From: Nitrospirota bacterium
GTDB taxonomy: Bacteria > Nitrospirota > Nitrospiria > SBBL01 > JAADHI01
Length of the DNA stretch: 64,000 nt
Direction: 5' to 3'
Assembly (NCBI GenBank): GCA_029261195.1
Contig: JAJDBU010000063.1
Location: 62,001 to 126,000, forward strand
Position 1 is the stretch's first letter. Every line of letters begins with the position of its first letter. The notes beneath the pieces were generated by a model. It worked only from the letters and a program-made list of their open reading frames with translations, made no database searches and was not told the DNA's origin. The position numbers were made by a program, and so were the translations under genes. This document shows, piece after piece, positions 1 through 12,724 of this stretch.

Positions 1-1989
1 CCACTTAACCACTCCACTGCAGAGCAGGTGCAGTTGCTGGAATATTTGCACAGGGTTGGCTTGCATTCTGCGGCTATTTTTTACGACACGATTCCCTGGA
101 AGATGAGAGACATTTACCCTCCACACTTTTCTCAGGCCCATCGCGAATATATGATCGGTTTGGCAGAATATGATCTTATTTTCCCTATTTCCTTTTTTAG
201 TCGAGAAGATTTGATTGATTTTCTAGGGGGATTAGTACTTTCTTGCCCCCAAGGGATAGATAAAAGGATAAAATCCGTAGTCTTACCTGGGGAGTTTCCT
301 GAGAGTCCTCGAGTTACTACTATCGTGCCGAGTGCGGATGGAGTCATTACGGTCTTATGTGTGGGCACGGTTGAACCACGTAAGAACCATGAGACTCTAC
401 TCCAAGCTTTTGAACTTGCAACCCAACACTGTGGTGAGCCATTACGTCTCGTTATCGCGGGTGGCAAACATAGTATTGAACCTGAGTTGGGAAAGCGCGT
501 GAGAGCTTTTATCGGAAATTCTCCGAACGTGACCTGGGAGGAAGACGTTGATGACAACCGGTTACGGGAACTACAACTCGCTTGTGATTTTACGGTATAC
601 CCTTCCATAGAGGAGGGGTTTGGCTTGCCAATCCTGGAAAGCCTGTGGTATGCCAAACCCAGCATCTGCGCGAATTTTGGTGCCATGCGGGAAGCAGCTG
701 AAGGAGGCGGATGCCTCATGGTTGATGTGAGCAGCGTTGAAACATTAGCTGGAGCCATCCAGCGCATGGTTGAAGATATATCGTTGCGAGAGGCTTTAAC
801 AATTGAAGCGGTGGAGCGTCCTTTCAAGACTTGGAATGACTATGCTGTGGAAGTGGCTACACGGCTAGCGGAAGCGACTCCCGTCCAATTTTCTGAATTA
901 AAGCTTACTCAAAGTGAGATCGAGTCGCGTGCACAGTCGATGAATCTTGTACCTCGCCCCAAGCTCTCAATCTGTATCAGCACCTACAACCGTGCTGATT
1001 GGCTGGCGACTAGTTTAAAGAACTGGTCGAGCCTATATCCTGAGCCTCTTCCAGGTGTGGAGTTTCTAGTGTGCGATAACGCGTCTACAGACCACACTCC
1101 GGAAATTGTCAAGCCATATTTGGAACGGATGGATTTCTCCTACCACCGTAATGTACATAATGTCGGAATGCTCGGTAACTTGCGGGAAACCACACATCGC
1201 ACTCGCGGTGAATATGTGTGGATTCTTGGTGATGATGACCTGCTGATGCCAAATGCCATCGAACGAGTGATGGGTATTCTCCAGTCGAATTTGGGTGTGG
1301 CGCTGGTCTATTTGAATTATGCTTTTACTCGAGTAGAAGATGCGCGTACTCTTACCGATTTTGATGCTTTTTTCCGTGCGAGTACCCCCATCGTGCCTGC
1401 CGAACCAGATCTAGAAGGCCCGATCTATACGATCTGTGCACGCAACGAGAATTTCTTTACTGCGATCTATGCGCTGGTTTTTAGACGTGATCACGCAATA
1501 AAGGCTTACTCACAAGATACCAGCGGCCGTCCCTTCTCGACCATGCTTACCTGCATCCCTACCACCTATTATGTGCTCAATTATATGATGTATGAGCCTG
1601 GTTTTTGGATTGGTGAACCTATGGTGGTGGTTAATATGAATGTATCCTGGCTCAGATACGCGCCACTTTGGATTTTAGAACGAATTCCAGAAGTATACGA
1701 CTTTGCTGAAAAACAAGGCGTCCCCAAGGATCAGATGGATCGATGGAGGAGCCACACTCTTCCAGGGGTTGTAAATTATTTCAAGATTATTTTTGAAGAC
1801 GACCCTTTGAATAATGCCGAATATTTTAGGCCGGATAGAGTTATACGCCGATTTAAGCATCTGCCCGAGTTTGCAGCAGTATCAAAGGAACTCCGTGATA
1901 TCTACTCATACGCTCATGCCAAAGGACATCCGGCGGCAACTAAACCAGTTTCAGTTGTTTTTCCGGAAAACCAAGAAGGCCACTTCTAA
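1..1989 (+). CDS. GT4-GT2 bifunctional glycosyltransferase (5' truncated by window edge)
   Basis: The frame is open to the left edge, so the true start lies outside the window; the first internal start is GTG at 28, and residue numbers count from it. The N-terminal part is the C-terminal Rossmann half of a GT4 (GT-B fold) transferase: VGTVEPRKN at 112-120 and the nucleotide-sugar-binding EEGFGLPILE (EX7E type) at 195-204. From about residue 312 a GT-A/GT2 domain begins (SICISTYNRADWL, the DNAS motif at 350-353, the GDDD metal-binding motif at 401-404). One chain therefore probably makes two successive sugar transfers in surface-polysaccharide or O-antigen assembly in the cytoplasm. It heads a run of sugar genes. 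Acceptor and donor specificity cannot be read from the sequence. Confidence 0.88.
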   Translation, partial: PLNHSTAEQVQLLEYLHRVGLHSAAIFYDTIPWKMRDIYPPHFSQAHREYMIGLAEYDLIFPISFFSREDLIDFLGGLVLSCPQGIDKRIKSVVLPGEFPESPRVTTIVPSADGVITVLCVGTVEPRKNHETLLQAFELATQHCGEPLRLVIAGGKHSIEPELGKRVRAFIGNSPNVTWEEDVDDNRLRELQLACDFTVYPSIEEGFGLPILESLWYAKPSICANFGAMREAAEGGGCLMVDVSSVETLAGAIQRMVEDISLREALTIEAVERPFKTWNDYAVEVATRLAEATPVQFSELKLTQSEIESRAQSMNLVPRPKLSICISTYNRADWLATSLKNWSSLYPEPLPGVEFLVCDNASTDHTPEIVKPYLERMDFSYHRNVHNVGMLGNLRETTHRTRGEYVWILGDDDLLMPNAIERVMGILQSNLGVALVYLNYAFTRVEDARTLTDFDAFFRASTPIVPAEPDLEGPIYTICARNENFFTAIYALVFRRDHAIKAYSQDTSGRPFSTMLTCIPTTYYVLNYMMYEPGFWIGEPMVVVNMNVSWLRYAPLWILERIPEVYDFAEKQGVPKDQMDRWRSHTLPGVVNYFKIIFEDDPLNNAEYFRPDRVIRRFKHLPEFAAVSKELRDIYSYAHAKGHPAATKPVSVVFPENQEGHF

Positions 1990-2014: not shown

Positions 2015-3253
2015 GTGACATCTTATAGGGAGATACCATCTTGCCGGATAAGCGGCCGGGAGGATTTGATCTCAGTACTGAACTTAGGACATCAGGTGTT
2101 GACCGGGGTCTTCCCGGAGGATGCTTCTGTGGAGGTTACCAAAGGCCCTCTGGAGTTAGTATGGTGCCCGGAAAGCGGCCTTTTACAATTGCGCAATTCC
2201 TACGACGCTGGGGAGATGTATGGTGACAACTACGGATATCGTTCTGGCCTAAATCAATCGATGGTTGAGCATCTCACCAATAAGGTACGCTCCCTTGAAC
2301 GGCTAGTTCAACCAAAGACAGGTGATACTGTGTTGGATATCGGCAGTAATGATTGCACTACCCTAAAGGCATACTCAATGCGGAGTATTAAACGTATCGG
2401 GATTGATCCGACAGGGAAAAAGTTTTCCTCATATTATCCGAATGACATCAAACTTGTTTCGGATTTCTTCAGCGCTGAGGCGTATAGATCAGTCAGCGAC
2501 AAACCCGCGAAAATAGTGACATCTATTGCAATGTTTTATGATCTGGAAAACCCAATTCAGTTTGCCCGTGAGATTGAATCCGTACTGTCCGATGATGGCG
2601 TATGGCATTTCGAGCAGAGCTACATGCCCTCCATGCTTAGGATGAACTCATATGACACGATCTGCCATGAACATCTGGAATACTATTCACTTGTTGTAGT
2701 AAAGCAAATTATTAATACAGCAGGACTCAAGCTCATTGACGTGGCAATGAATAGTGTGAACGGTGGTAGTTTCGCTGTTACAGCAGCCAAAGTTAGTAAC
2801 AATTCAATACAGCCAAACCATGCAGTAATTAATTGGATGTTAGAACAAGAGGATCGTATGGGGTTGTCTACGCCTCGTCCTTATAGGGAATTTGAAGAGC
2901 GGGTGTTTCGTCATCGTGAGGATCTTAGACGACTCATCAGATCACTAGTAGCTGATGGAAAGCGGGTACTTGGCTATGGCGCATCCACAAAGGGAAATGT
3001 AGTATTACAGTTTTGTGGGCTGACGGCCTCTGAAATTCCTGCAATAGCAGAAGTCAATCAGGAAAAATTTGGTCGCGTGACTCCAGGTACGCACATTCCG
3101 ATCATCTCAGAAAAAGAGGCTCGGGCGATGAAACCAGATTATTTCCTTGTGCTACCCTGGCATTTTAAGGATGGAATTGTGCGCCGTGAGCACGAATATC
3201 TCGCCAATGGAGGCAAATTTATTTTTCCGTTCCCTGAGATTGAGATTGTATAA
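2015..3253 (+). CDS. Sugar C-methyltransferase family protein (zinc-knuckle / SAM / C-terminal domain)
   Basis: The architecture matches NovU/TylC3-like SAM-dependent methyltransferases that act on nucleotide-linked sugars: an N-terminal knuckle, a SAM domain (VLDIGSND), the EHLEYYSL segment, and the C-terminal 'GYGASTKGN...LPWHFKDGI' nucleotide-binding-like domain. GTG at 2015 is chosen because AAGGAG (2001-2006) sits 8 nt upstream; an upstream in-frame TTG (2009) would leave only 2 nt. In this family the N-terminal zinc knuckle is normally CxxCG plus CxxCG. Here both second cysteines are serines (CRISG and CPESG), and the SAM-loop glycine after GSND is a cysteine. Probable role: methylation of a deoxysugar for the polysaccharide built by the neighbouring transferases. 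The substrate is unknown. Confidence 0.87.
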   Translation: MTSYREIPSCRISGREDLISVLNLGHQVLTGVFPEDASVEVTKGPLELVWCPESGLLQLRNSYDAGEMYGDNYGYRSGLNQSMVEHLTNKVRSLERLVQPKTGDTVLDIGSNDCTTLKAYSMRSIKRIGIDPTGKKFSSYYPNDIKLVSDFFSAEAYRSVSDKPAKIVTSIAMFYDLENPIQFAREIESVLSDDGVWHFEQSYMPSMLRMNSYDTICHEHLEYYSLVVVKQIINTAGLKLIDVAMNSVNGGSFAVTAAKVSNNSIQPNHAVINWMLEQEDRMGLSTPRPYREFEERVFRHREDLRRLIRSLVADGKRVLGYGASTKGNVVLQFCGLTASEIPAIAEVNQEKFGRVTPGTHIPIISEKEARAMKPDYFLVLPWHFKDGIVRREHEYLANGGKFIFPFPEIEIV

Positions 3254-3270: not shown

Positions 3271-4386
3271 ATGAAAATAGTAATTAATACAATACCGTTA
3301 TTGTCCCCGATGACTGGGGTGGGAACTTATATCTTTAACATGAGCACTCAACTACGGCATCTGAAACCAGATTATGACTACTTTTACTATAGTGGATACT
3401 ACTCACGGAAGATGAAGGTAAGCAATGAAGGGAATAACCTCTTTTTTAAGGCAAAGGAAATTGTCAAGAAGATACCGATAATATCCTCTTTGGGCCACAA
3501 TGCAAAGAATGGCCTAGCTCATTTTCAGCAGGAGAAATACGACCTATATTTTGAGCCAAATCATATTCCTCTGGATATTAAAGCTAGAAGGACGGTAACT
3601 ACCATATGTGATTTTTCATTTATTCATAACCCGGAATGGCATTCAAGGGACAAGGTTGAATATTTCTCCAGTCATTTCTTAAAGAAAATCTATAAATCTG
3701 ATGCCATCATAACCATATCAGAATATGTTCAGAAAGAAGCAACTGAAATATTGAAAGGCTACAGGGGAACCATTAAGAGCATACCTCTTGGGTATGACAT
3801 GGCGTTGTTCAATTCCCAAAAGGAAATAACATCGGAGTACTCGTTTCCAGAGAGGTTTATTTTGTTTGTCGGGTCTGTGGAGCCTAGGAAAAACCTAAAG
3901 AGTCTTTTAGAAGCCTATACCCGGCTACCTAATAATGTTAAGAACGATTGTAAACTTCTAATAGCTGGTTTTAAAGGTTGGAAGAATAATGAAATCATGG
4001 ACTTATTAAAAAAAGAGAAAAAACACGTAGAGTACCTTGGTTATGTCGGTAAGCAGCTCTTAGCCGATCTTTACAAAAATGCATTGTGTTTCATCTATCC
4101 CTCCCTGTACGAGGGTTTCGGCCTCCCACCTCTTGAGGCAATGGCATGCGGCTGCCCCGTCATAGTTTCCAATGTAGCAAGCCTGCCGGAAGTTTGTGGG
4201 GACGCCGCTTGTTATGTCGATCCACATAATGTAGAAAGTATTTCGGAAGGGCTGTATCAGCTCTTGATAGATGAGTCTTTGAGGCATAGCCTTGTTAAAA
4301 AAGGCTTGGAAAGGGCAAAGCGCTTCAGTTGGGAAAAGACGGCAAAAGAACATATCAAAATTTTTGAAGAAATTCATAACAGATAA
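3271..4386 (+). CDS. GT4-family glycosyltransferase
   Basis: A 371-residue GT-B fold glycosyltransferase. The N-terminal glycine-rich acceptor loop ([10 protein letters not shown]) is followed by the C-terminal donor domain with [11 protein letters not shown] and [18 protein letters not shown] (EX7E motif), then NVASLPEV. It has full family length and no membrane segment, so it is probably cytoplasmic or peripheral at the inner membrane, transferring a hexose (often mannose or rhamnose) to a lipid-linked glycan. It lies 17 nt after the methyltransferase and 12 nt before gmd, in one likely operon. The gene is visibly richer in A+T than the housekeeping genes further right, as is common for polysaccharide islands. 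Confidence 0.9.
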
Positions 4387-5436
<1,050 letters not shown>

Positions 5437-9427: not shown

Positions 9428-9832
9428 CTATTTCCGGTTGTTTTCCTGCTCTTCCTGCTCAGTCTTGCAATTAATGCAGTATGTCGTCACAGGGCGGGCT
9501 TTCAACCTCTTATCCGAAATGGGTTCTTCACAGGACTCACAGATGCCATATTCCTCAGCTGCAATGCGTTCAAGGGCTTCATCTATTTTTTTTATTAATT
9601 TCTGTTCACGTTCTCTGAGTCTTAAGAGAAAATTCTGATCTGCCTCTACAGTGGCCTGATCACTTAAGTCTGGAAAAGCCTCACCCCTGGGATTAAGACT
9701 GCCAGCAATGATCACACCTGCTTCGGCCAAGAGATCTGTCCTTTGTGCTTCCAGATCTTTTTTAATTTCATCAAAGAGACTTTTTGTCTTGTCCCCATTT
9801 TTTTGGTTGTTCTGAACCTTGTTACTTCCCAT
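9428..9832 (-). CDS. DksA/TraR-family C4 zinc-finger regulator
   Basis: A 134-residue member of the DksA/TraR family, which inserts a coiled coil into the RNA polymerase secondary channel and modulates promoters with or without ppGpp. Seen: a long helical coiled coil (about 15-95), the acidic tip pattern DxxDxA (Asp55, Asp58, Ala60) equivalent to the functional tip of E. coli DksA, and a C4 zinc finger (Cys98, Cys101, Cys119, Cys122). The order is normal for the family. It has its own promoter (9914-9942) and is transcribed alone. Other DksA-like proteins may exist in the genome, so I give no gene symbol. Confidence 0.85.
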   Translation of the reverse strand: MGSNKVQNNQKNGDKTKSLFDEIKKDLEAQRTDLLAEAGVIIAGSLNPRGEAFPDLSDQATVEADQNFLLRLREREQKLIKKIDEALERIAAEEYGICESCEEPISDKRLKARPVTTYCINCKTEQEEQENNRK

Positions 9833-9962: not shown

Positions 9963-9993
9963 CGACTAAAAAAAGCAGACCGCTTCTTTTTAT
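9963..9993. terminator. Possible weak bidirectional terminator
   Basis: An A-run/GC core/T-run element (AAAAAAAGC on the plus strand, then GACC and GCTTCTTTTT) lies directly after the DUF4340 gene stop and can form a short A-T rich hairpin on either strand. The GC core is only about three pairs, so confidence is low. Confidence 0.3.
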
Positions 9994-11372
9994 CATTGTA
10001 ACCTGAGGTCTTTTAGGCTTGGAATCTTAGCTAGAGCCTCTTTTACCAGGAAAAGGGGAGAGGGTTGAACCGTACTTTTCGCGTAGAGTTGATCGCCCTT
10101 GATTTTTCCGAAGACAATTTCACCCAGGTCTTTTCCTGAATGCCCTTGCAAACGAAGCGTCACTTGAGGATTGGAAAATCCGGATTTTGCCGATGCCGGG
10201 TCCAAATCATCCAAAAACTGCTCCGCCCGCATATTAAAAAGATCGTTTAAAAGATTGGAAATCGGGACAGCATTTTCGACTTCATTTGCCTCTTCCTCCC
10301 CAATAATTTCCAGCCACCACTGGCCTTCTTTCTTTTCAAGGAAAAAGTGCTCGTCGGGCCGGATGATTTCAAGTCTTTCAATCTCTTCTGGAAAACTCAA
10401 AGAAAGCAGTGCTTTATCACGATAGTGTTCAAATGCTTGTTGAATGGTCTTTAAGTGCTTTTTCGATACCTGAAAAATCGGGTCCATCGGGGAGGCCACA
10501 ATATTGAGAATATCCGGCTTCTCCTCATCTGTATAGAAGGAGGCTTCTCGTTGCACCTTACTGACCTTTAACGTGATGCGCATGATCGGCGGAGCAAAGT
10601 CTGCCCTCAGTGCATCTTTTCCATGGTCAATGAAATGCTCACCGCGCAGGCTGACAATGCTGCCCAACAGGTTGGCAACTTCATTACGATCGGCCCGGAA
10701 GACCTGTGTGGCATTGGCCATTGCGCGATCGACCCTCATTGTCCATCCCTGCTTATCCCGGCTCAGGCTCATCAGGCCATTCACCGAAAGCAACTGAATC
10801 CGGCTGATATCCTGGGGTTCATGAGGAAAAATTTCCTGCCGCCGCCATCCCATGAGGTCTTTATTCAGGACTTCTTTAATGCCGGCTCTCATCAGGTAGA
10901 GAGAAGTCCCTTCTCCAATTCGGACATAAACATCGCTGCCGGTTAGATTTGGACCGCCGACCTCGACAATCTCGGTGTCATTTTTTTGAAGGGTGATGAT
11001 GACGGTGTAGAGCGGCGGATCGAGCCCGAAGTCTTTCAGGTTTGTCGGTTTCTCCTCGACAAGACGGCTTGCCTTTAGCTCCGTAAGGAAGCCGGCGATT
11101 TCGTCTCCCGCCCGCTCATTTGCGACAGTTTCGATAGGATCGAAGATACGCCAGGGGTTCGTAGGATGGTCGGGGAAATACTCCAATTCAATATTGTTTT
11201 TAGCGCTTTTGATTCGGACACGGGTAATCTCCGACATCTCAAAAGAAAAGAGCTTCGCCTTTTTAATCTCGGCGTCTCTTTTTTTTGCGTCACCGGGCAA
11301 TTCGACAAAATAGAGGTAGGCGCCCAAAAGAATGAGCAGTATCGTCAGGAAGATGGTTCCCTTAAATCTCAC
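9993..11372 (-). CDS. DUF4340 domain protein of a Gld-type ABC cluster
   Basis: A 459-residue protein with one N-terminal membrane anchor (TIFLTILLILLGAYLYFV, residues 5-22) followed by repeated periplasmic beta-rich modules of the DUF4340 type (LEYFPDHPTNPWRI, LVEEKPTNLKDFGL, VYVRIGEGTSLYL). In many bacteria this family is the last gene of a GldA-GldF-GldG-like ABC cluster, as here. Its GTG start overlaps the stop of the GldG-like gene by 4 bp, so translation is coupled. It probably forms a periplasmic accessory part of the exporter. The transported substrate is not known. Confidence 0.8.
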   Translation of the reverse strand: MRFKGTIFLTILLILLGAYLYFVELPGDAKKRDAEIKKAKLFSFEMSEITRVRIKSAKNNIELEYFPDHPTNPWRIFDPIETVANERAGDEIAGFLTELKASRLVEEKPTNLKDFGLDPPLYTVIITLQKNDTEIVEVGGPNLTGSDVYVRIGEGTSLYLMRAGIKEVLNKDLMGWRRQEIFPHEPQDISRIQLLSVNGLMSLSRDKQGWTMRVDRAMANATQVFRADRNEVANLLGSIVSLRGEHFIDHGKDALRADFAPPIMRITLKVSKVQREASFYTDEEKPDILNIVASPMDPIFQVSKKHLKTIQQAFEHYRDKALLSLSFPEEIERLEIIRPDEHFFLEKKEGQWWLEIIGEEEANEVENAVPISNLLNDLFNMRAEQFLDDLDPASAKSGFSNPQVTLRLQGHSGKDLGEIVFGKIKGDQLYAKSTVQPSPLFLVKEALAKIPSLKDLRLQ

Positions 11373-12724
11373 AAACGGCGTCTCCCACGCCAGATGTAAA
11401 GACCGATGCCCATGATGGTTAAGGGGAGGATCAAGACGGAAACACTAAAGATCATGTTCATTTGCTGCGCCGATAGTACAAGTGTCGTGGCCGGAATTTC
11501 CTTTGGCCGAATCGACACCAGGTCGCCTTCGTCCGCAAGCCAACTGAGTACATTCTGGAACAGATCGCCATTGCCGGCGGAACGTGCCGTGCTATTGCTC
11601 GCGAAATCGGAGTCGCCGATAATCACAAGGCGCATCTTGTTGGTTTCGTCGGAGGCATAAAAAACGCCACCAAAGCTGATGGGCCCCTGGCGGTCCCGGT
11701 TCGGGTCGATGGAAAGATCGCCTGAAATATCCTGCGTAAACCAGGTTTCCAGACTGGTTTCCAGAAAAGGGTCAAAGCGGTAGCCCTTACCGAGCTTTGC
11801 ATCAAAGCCCACCGCACGCGCCACAGGGAAAAATGTGGCGAGATTGAAGTTTTCTGTTAAAACGTGGCTCAGGTAAGCACCGGGATTCAGGGTGGGAATC
11901 GTAATGCCCAAACCCGATGAGGGGTCTAAAATTAAACCATTATCCAGCTTCGCTCCCCAGTCGGCGAAGAAGCTTTCCAAGCCACTGCCGCCTGTATCTC
12001 CAAGTTCCGGATCCACTAGAAAAAAGACCTGTCCCCCGTCATCAAGATAGTGTTTCAGAGAATCCCGTTCTCTTTGGGTAAAGGGACGCTTCGCTCCGGC
12101 AATGATCACAACGTCCGCATCTTTCGGGACCTTGTTTTTAGTGAGTAAGGGGAGGGTTTTCACAATAAATCCCTGGGAAACGAGGGTGTCGCCGAGGAAA
12201 GAATAACCTGTCTGCTCCGTATCATTGATGGAATGTTCGCCATGCCCTTCGACAAAATAGAAGGTTTTTTTCTCTTTTCGGCTGATTCGGATTAAGGCCG
12301 AAGTCAAACCCTCCTCGGTAATCGCACGTGCTGCGATTCTTCGGCCTTGCAATTCAAGAATAACCGTATCGTAATCGGTAATACCGTATTGCTGAGCCAA
12401 AGCCGGTTTTTTGTCCGGGTCTACAATGACATAACGCACTTTTTCAGTTTGGTGGGTGTAATTTTTGAAGAGATCCTCAGCCCGGGCCTTGACCTTACTT
12501 TGGGAAGCGAAAAAACCGGTGATCGTCACTTCTTCCTGTAAGTTCTCCAAAATCGATTCCGTTTGTCCGGAGAGCGAAAAAGTCCCTGAATCAGAGAAAT
12601 CAAAGCGCAGTTCATGTCTGGCCAGGATAAAATTAACAATGGATAGGATGGCGACAAAGATAGCGACGGCCACAAGGCTATTCGTCCCATGTTTCATCGC
12701 GCGTTGTGTTGACTGATTTTTCAT
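11369..12724 (-). CDS. GldG-like auxiliary protein of ABC transporter
   Basis: A 451-residue membrane protein with an N-terminal helix (LVAVAIFVAILSIVNFILA, about 13-32), a large extracytoplasmic domain of the ABC_transp_aux/GldG type (VTITGFFASQ, ALAQQYGI, FYFVEGHGEHSI, ADVVIIAGAKRPFTQRE), and a C-terminal helix (MIFSVSVLILPLTIMGIGLYIW) followed by a basic tail. GldG proteins pair with the GldF permease and GldA ATPase; in Bacteroidetes they are linked to gliding and secretion, while in other phyla the role is undefined. It lies 58 bp after the permease gene and overlaps the DUF4340 gene. Confidence 0.82.
   Translation of the reverse strand: MKNQSTQRAMKHGTNSLVAVAIFVAILSIVNFILARHELRFDFSDSGTFSLSGQTESILENLQEEVTITGFFASQSKVKARAEDLFKNYTHQTEKVRYVIVDPDKKPALAQQYGITDYDTVILELQGRRIAARAITEEGLTSALIRISRKEKKTFYFVEGHGEHSINDTEQTGYSFLGDTLVSQGFIVKTLPLLTKNKVPKDADVVIIAGAKRPFTQRERDSLKHYLDDGGQVFFLVDPELGDTGGSGLESFFADWGAKLDNGLILDPSSGLGITIPTLNPGAYLSHVLTENFNLATFFPVARAVGFDAKLGKGYRFDPFLETSLETWFTQDISGDLSIDPNRDRQGPISFGGVFYASDETNKMRLVIIGDSDFASNSTARSAGNGDLFQNVLSWLADEGDLVSIRPKEIPATTLVLSAQQMNMIFSVSVLILPLTIMGIGLYIWRGRRRL

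Follow-up and report, generated by a model that had tools for sequence, protein, structure and literature searches.

Has a sugar C-methyltransferase encoded in a Nitrospirota genome lost its structural zinc site on its own, or does its altered zinc knuckle belong to a wider pattern? The gene lies in a window of 64,000 nucleotides, by which we mean the whole stretch of DNA that was analysed. The first-pass annotation had pointed out that both halves of the knuckle read CxxSG rather than CxxCG, and had seen in this a parallel loss by this protein of two of four zinc cysteines. The gene and the motifs concerned are as follows, in window coordinates.

2015..3253, + strand: sugar C-methyltransferase gene, 412 aa, with an N-terminal knuckle domain, a SAM domain and a C-terminal domain
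2042..2053, + strand: first knuckle half C10-R-I-S13 (Cys codon TGC at 2042-2044, Ser codon AGC at 2051-2053)
2162..2176, + strand: second knuckle half W50-C51-P-E-S54 (Cys codon TGC at 2165-2167, Ser codon AGC at 2174-2176)
2339..2356, + strand: SAM-loop motif IGSNDC (Cys114 codon at 2354-2356), ordinary for the clade described below

The open frame at 2015-3253 (+) has 412 codons and encodes a sugar C-methyltransferase of the TcaB9/MtmC type. Its GTG start at 2015 lies 8 bases behind AAGGAG and is therefore preferred to the alternative TTG at 2009 in the list of open reading frames. Three Pfam domains, namely, Methyltransf_13 (putative zinc binding; 54.7 bits, cut-off 31.3), Methyltransf_23 (34.9 bits, cut-off 27), and Methyltransf_14 (183.9 bits, cut-off 23.5), are present in this order and above cut-off, which is the domain layout of NDP-sugar 3-C-methyltransferases. 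The AlphaFold model of the protein has a mean pLDDT of 94.1, with 355 of 412 residues at 90 or above; the blocks over the knuckles score 83–96. A Foldseek comparison of this model with solved structures gave TM scores of 0.93 to MtmC (4rv9) and 0.92 to TcaB9 (3ndi). The modelled protein thus appears otherwise intact, with its fold kept. As annotated, the rest of the protein is well preserved, in sequence conservation as well as in model confidence. The confident model and its superposition on MtmC and TcaB9 suggest that the knuckle domain folds without metal, with the restriction that predictions of this type never contain metal.

The translation reads CRISG at residues 10–14 and CPESG at 51–55, and AGC encodes both serines, in agreement with the earlier description. 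All four aligned positions are Cys in TcaB9 and in MtmC, and presumably TcaB9 and the four-Cys relatives hold zinc at the knuckle. The window protein, with CRIS ... CPES, departs from the four-ligand CxxC ... CxxC form of Methyltransf_13; the second Cys of each pair is replaced (S13, S54), which places it in the branch that we call zinc-less. Zinc sites are not lost generally here, since a DksA/TraR-type protein in the same window (9428-9832, − strand) keeps its four zinc-finger cysteines (CESC ... CINC).

Homologues were collected from genome samples, one genome-contig scan, four viral-contig scans, and plasmid and phage records; 9 of 159 plasmid records and 1 of 6 phage records contained a match. 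The genome-contig scan contributed the best 80 of its 566 matches, so that sampling inside the clade is uneven. In total, 371 places gave 248 distinct rows including that of the window protein, 7 of them partial at the relevant sites. A row is termed zinc-less when Cys is absent at both position 13 and position 54, a label taken from the sequence and not from metal content.

Both cysteines are absent in 111 of the 248 distinct rows, and no scored row lacks just one of them; the proposal that the two go together is borne out in 111/111 zinc-less rows. The state follows sequence identity to the window protein closely. At 60% identity or more, 95 of 97 rows are zinc-less, in a set that counts the window protein and holds the best 80 of 566 genome-contig matches. 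The fraction is 16/19 at 52–60% identity and falls to 0/25 at 45–52%, 0/43 at 38–45% (3 partial), and 0/64 below 38% (4 partial). By record titles among the best 80 of the 566 genome-contig matches, the zinc-less rows come from Pseudomonadota, Nitrospirota, Acidobacteriota, Bacteroidota, Verrucomicrobiota, Campylobacterota, and other phyla, with one cyanobacterium also among them. Titles and abstracts of open-licence papers yielded none on zinc-less members of the family.

The paired absence is more than chance, yet it is not peculiar to the window gene, being shared with 110 other distinct homologues; the zinc-less branch is large, and the gene is nothing unusual within it. That the loss is recent, or confined to this protein, can be set aside. 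That close homologues mostly have the CxxSG-type form is one half of what the first-pass annotation had said would count against its claim, the other half being that they still bind zinc. The single-base change from TGC to AGC, which had been pointed out for each site, does not date the loss because the same form is shared by 95 of the 97 nearest rows; TCN serine codons also occur (8/111 zinc-less rows at site 13, 19/111 at site 54). Residue 13 in the zinc-less rows is Ser (73), Gly (24), Thr (10), Asn (2), Asp (1), or Ala (1), and residue 54 is Ser (103) or Gly (8). A Cys does follow GSND directly in the SAM loop (IGSNDCTT at residues 109–116). It had been pointed out as standing in place of Gly, but it is ordinary for the clade, since the residue at this place is Ala in 61, Cys in 31, Gly in 16, and Ser in 3 of the 111 zinc-less rows.

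The remaining two ligands behave differently from each other. Of the 111 zinc-less rows, 83 retain Cys51, the third ligand; the 28 that lack it include L004 and L073, which are 74 and 77% identical to the window protein. Cys10 and Arg11 (window 2042-2047) are each kept in 111/111. Cys10 is thus invariant although the other three ligands are dispensable.

Two side observations concern the composition of this set. Twenty of the 111 zinc-less rows (L033, L166, L278, and others) are located on IMG/VR viral contigs, the longest of about 213 kb, and these copies of a sugar methyltransferase may be phage-borne. The L004 protein, from a genome of the same genus (G001), is identical to the L092 protein from Nitrospirota bacterium OFTM308.

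How often the ligands were lost was approached with trees built with the zinc-site columns left out. A quick tree of 139 rows contains an 88-row clade (SH-aLRT 96) that is zinc-less except for one member, L229. On a 63-row bootstrap tree the zinc state needs 4 changes (5–95% range over 200 bootstrap trees, 4–4), and L229 falls into one group with L072, L100, and the window protein at 99/97. A single origin of all zinc-less rows was rejected by the AU test even with L229 allowed inside the clade (p 5.9e-6), and a main clade enlarged by L166 was rejected too (p 2.7e-5). The groups had been defined with the first tree already in view, which makes these p values flattering. L166 pairs with the four-Cys row L059 at 100/98, the tree leaving the direction of change unfixed. 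The L033 viral group falls outside the main clade with weak support (82/7). A sign test on independent pairs gave p 0.125, from 4 pairs only, with which 0.05 cannot be reached. These results support at least two losses of the zinc ligands, with a third, in the L033 group, being probable. A loss of the fourth Cys alone was also considered and rejected: 14 of 15 candidate relatives carry a longer second loop with a Cys further on, and the fifteenth, L170, likewise has a longer second loop when inspected by eye.

Two members of the clade have all four cysteines. L229, 77% identical to the window protein, reads CRVCG ... WCPDCG, and L376, 61% identical, reads CRLCG ... WCPDCE; both use TGC at site 13 and TGT at site 54. 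On a quick tree of 102 rows they fall in two different starred and otherwise zinc-less subclades, of 22 rows (support 98) and 11 rows (support 99). A careful tree of 52 rows again places L376 in a starred, otherwise zinc-less set (4 rows, 100/100), whereas no starred set with L229 comprises fewer than half of the rows. The AU test rejected keeping the zinc-less main clade together without L229 (p 0.005) and without L376 (p 0.001). A chimeric origin of the two was rejected as well: in 40-residue slices, no four-Cys relative from the tree set beats the zinc-less ones. L229 and L376 would then be two cases in which a paired change brought the four-Cys site back, through which they would have regained zinc.

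The positions beside the lost ligands distinguish the two states. Of the 101 main-clade zinc-less rows, 97 have Trp50; Pro52 is present in 95% of the main-clade rows and also in both outside zinc-less lineages. In the 102-row set, residue 50 is Trp, Leu, Phe, or Tyr in 67/67 zinc-less rows and Lys or Arg in 28/35 four-Cys rows; four of the four-Cys rows besides L229 and L376 have Leu or Val there, which speaks against a simple rule. Among the 68 four-Cys rows of at least 38% identity other than L229 and L376, none has Trp50 and 10 have Pro52, residue 50 is Lys or Arg in 54, and the second loop is longer in 54. A hydrophobic plug may stand in place of the metal. The turn glycines were tried as a mark of relaxed constraint. 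G14 is present in 70 of the 101 main-clade zinc-less rows, in 49 of the 54 four-Cys rows whose second loop is long, and in 7 of the 14 whose second loop is short; for G55 the corresponding counts are 85, 52, and 7. This argument was dropped because the short-loop four-Cys rows vary as much.

The strongest competitor to a return of the site is that nothing was regained: the ancestor of the clade would have had four cysteines, L229 and L376 would have retained them, and the other lineages would have lost them in parallel, always in pairs. Parallel loss is also seen elsewhere (in L166 and probably in the L033 group), and sampling bears on the matter. The 80 genome-contig loci are best matches only (of 566), as against 13 clade members (at least 60% identity) met by sampling genomes, two of which, L229 and L376 themselves, have four cysteines; four-Cys members may therefore be commoner than 2/97 suggests. 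This explanation needs 15 losses on the 102-row tree if no gain is allowed, and a loss-only model reaches lnL −56.4 against −21.8 for loss plus gain, both obtained from a single quick tree, uncorrected for sampling, under the assumption of a four-Cys root. It also meets the difficulty that Trp50 and Pro52, which are frequent in the zinc-less clade and absent or scarce in the other four-Cys rows counted above, are retained by both L229 and L376. We regard it as unlikely, at about one chance in five by our reckoning, and favor paired regain in L229 and L376.

Less probable still is that zinc continues to be bound by Cys10 and Cys51 together with an acidic residue, water, or Ser. The universal Cys10 and the frequent Cys51 would fit, as would residue 53, where 79 of the 101 main-clade zinc-less rows have an acidic residue (Asp or Glu); in the window protein, the two Cys, the two Ser, and Glu53 could bind zinc weakly. 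But the 28 rows without Cys51 keep just one of the four cysteines, and no replacement His or Cys rose to conservation within residues 1–75 when 65 main-clade zinc-less rows were compared with 33 four-Cys rows. The sole ligand-type residue of this region that passed the filter is Glu67, and the suggestion of different ligands made from the gene sequence is accordingly not favored. A disulfide or redox switch between Cys10 and Cys51, the two knuckle cysteines that remain in 83 rows, seems quite improbable: Cys51 is missing even from L004 and L073, and the enzyme would be expected in the cytosol. Sequencing error or a decaying pseudogene is hardly credible in view of the 412-codon open frame, its high conservation, and the same absence in 110 other rows.

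Ligand loss and rebuilding appear always to have been pairwise, with two rebuildings, and evolution may have dropped and rebuilt the zinc site as a unit. In its full form, such a unit switch would comprise at least two and probably three paired losses, each accompanied by a hydrophobic residue 50 and Pro52, at least two natural paired rebuilds (L229 and L376), and a Cys10 held for a purpose other than zinc. We offer this composite tentatively, giving it slightly less than an even chance.

Substitutions in the predicted active site were found to be separate from the zinc state. The positions concerned were taken from the names of TcaB9 mutants in the PDB and placed by alignment.

2540..2542, + strand: Asp176, aligned with His181 of TcaB9 (Asp in 141/141 rows of at least 45% identity)
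2663..2674, + strand: C217-H-E219-H220, aligned with Tyr222 to His225 of TcaB9 (Cys217, at 2663-2665, in 141/141 rows of at least 45% identity)

We take Tyr76, His181, Tyr222, Glu224, and His225 to be the active-site residues of TcaB9. Three of them are kept as Tyr73, Glu219, and His220; His181 and Tyr222 correspond to Asp176 and Cys217, and hence the chemistry may differ. As four-Cys rows of at least 45% identity also have Asp176 and Cys217, both substitutions predate the loss of zinc and are unconnected with it. With Cys217 in place of Tyr222, a catalytic role may have changed, irrespective of zinc. Compared with MtmC (D-mycarose 3-C-methyltransferase, 4rv9), TcaB9 (3ndi, 4e33), and KijD1 (5t64), the window protein has the same fold over its whole length (TM 0.91–0.93) and the same three Pfam domains, but only two of the four knuckle cysteines and about 26–30% identity. 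It resembles more closely four-Cys relatives such as L231, L387, L057, and L175 (51–56% identity), which have Asp176 and Cys217-His-Glu-His and, unlike the window protein, keep four cysteines.

The likely substrate is suggested by the neighboring genes.

1..1989, + strand: 3' part of a gene for an 1800-aa protein that begins outside the window (L239:12587-17989)
3271..4386, + strand: glycosyltransferase (group 1), between the methyltransferase and dehydratase genes
4399..5436, + strand: GDP-mannose 4,6-dehydratase (TIGR01472, 481.3 bits, cut-off 415)

The 1800-aa protein has an N-terminal methyltransferase domain, group 1 glycosyltransferase domains, and a GT2 domain, an arrangement that resembles a fused WbdD-like terminator and polymerase; upstream of its gene are genes for an ABC2-type permease and an ABC ATPase with a Wzt_C domain. 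The GDP-mannose 4,6-dehydratase likely supplies the 4-keto sugar substrate. Of the 95 zinc-less loci examined, 90 of them distinct and 5 duplicates, 34 have it, as do 3 of 17 four-Cys loci; it is also present beside L229. In the other 61 zinc-less loci it is not in the examined flank, and flanks differ (L239, e.g., stops short of the dehydratase gene of the window). A reductase-like protein encoded at an Azospirillum locus was used as a query; this protein, whose best solved match is a GDP-6-deoxy-D-lyxo-4-hexulose reductase, retrieved no 4-keto reductase in the window's genome at E 1e-15, in a search that had no positive control. MtmC has a double function, and the window protein may have one of the same kind. 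For virenose, a comparable route has been put forward on the basis of sequence alone (PMC3539893). Elsewhere in the window, a DUF4340 protein is encoded beside an ABC_transp_aux protein (9993-12724, − strand).

Taken together, we consider the window protein to be an intact sugar C-methyltransferase of the TcaB9/TylC3/MtmC fold, most likely acting at C3 of GDP-4-keto-6-deoxy-mannose, whose knuckle has been without zinc since an ancestral paired loss of cysteines, and assign this reading a probability of roughly 0.7. The neighboring dehydratase would make GDP-4-keto-6-deoxy-mannose, the SAM-dependent window enzyme would most likely methylate its C3, and the resulting 3-C-methyl sugar would enter an O-antigen-like surface polysaccharide, for which the ABC transporter with genes upstream would be the exporter. 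The knuckle domain would keep its fold and no longer hold a structural zinc. The ancestor of the clade, now spread over many phyla, would have lost the second Cys of both pairs together, and the third Cys would then have drifted away repeatedly.

The general view is that a structural zinc site is not easily lost and is even less easily regained. The disrupted zinc ribbons of ribosomal proteins keep their fold after recurrent ligand loss, in another fold and with paralogues linked to zinc supply. Treble-clef domains show recurrent, variable loss of zinc ligands with the fold kept (PMC4999995); the knuckle domain described here is a different fold. According to a study on yeast xylitol dehydrogenases, these enzymes lost a structural four-Cys zinc, often with Ser or Asp replacing Cys, and are active; putting the cysteines back led to bound zinc and more stability, and removal of structural zinc by mutagenesis costs folding or activity (PMC9895041). 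There, the return was engineered and the fold is different, while here two natural relatives appear to have achieved it.

The interesting part is the zinc-less branch, above all its two four-Cys members, rather than the window gene. Annotators should be aware that a large branch of Methyltransf_13 may not fit the description "putative zinc binding domain". The family has members in both zinc-site states at 75–80% identity, and the cost and benefit of a structural zinc can therefore be tested in it by two substitutions in natural backgrounds.
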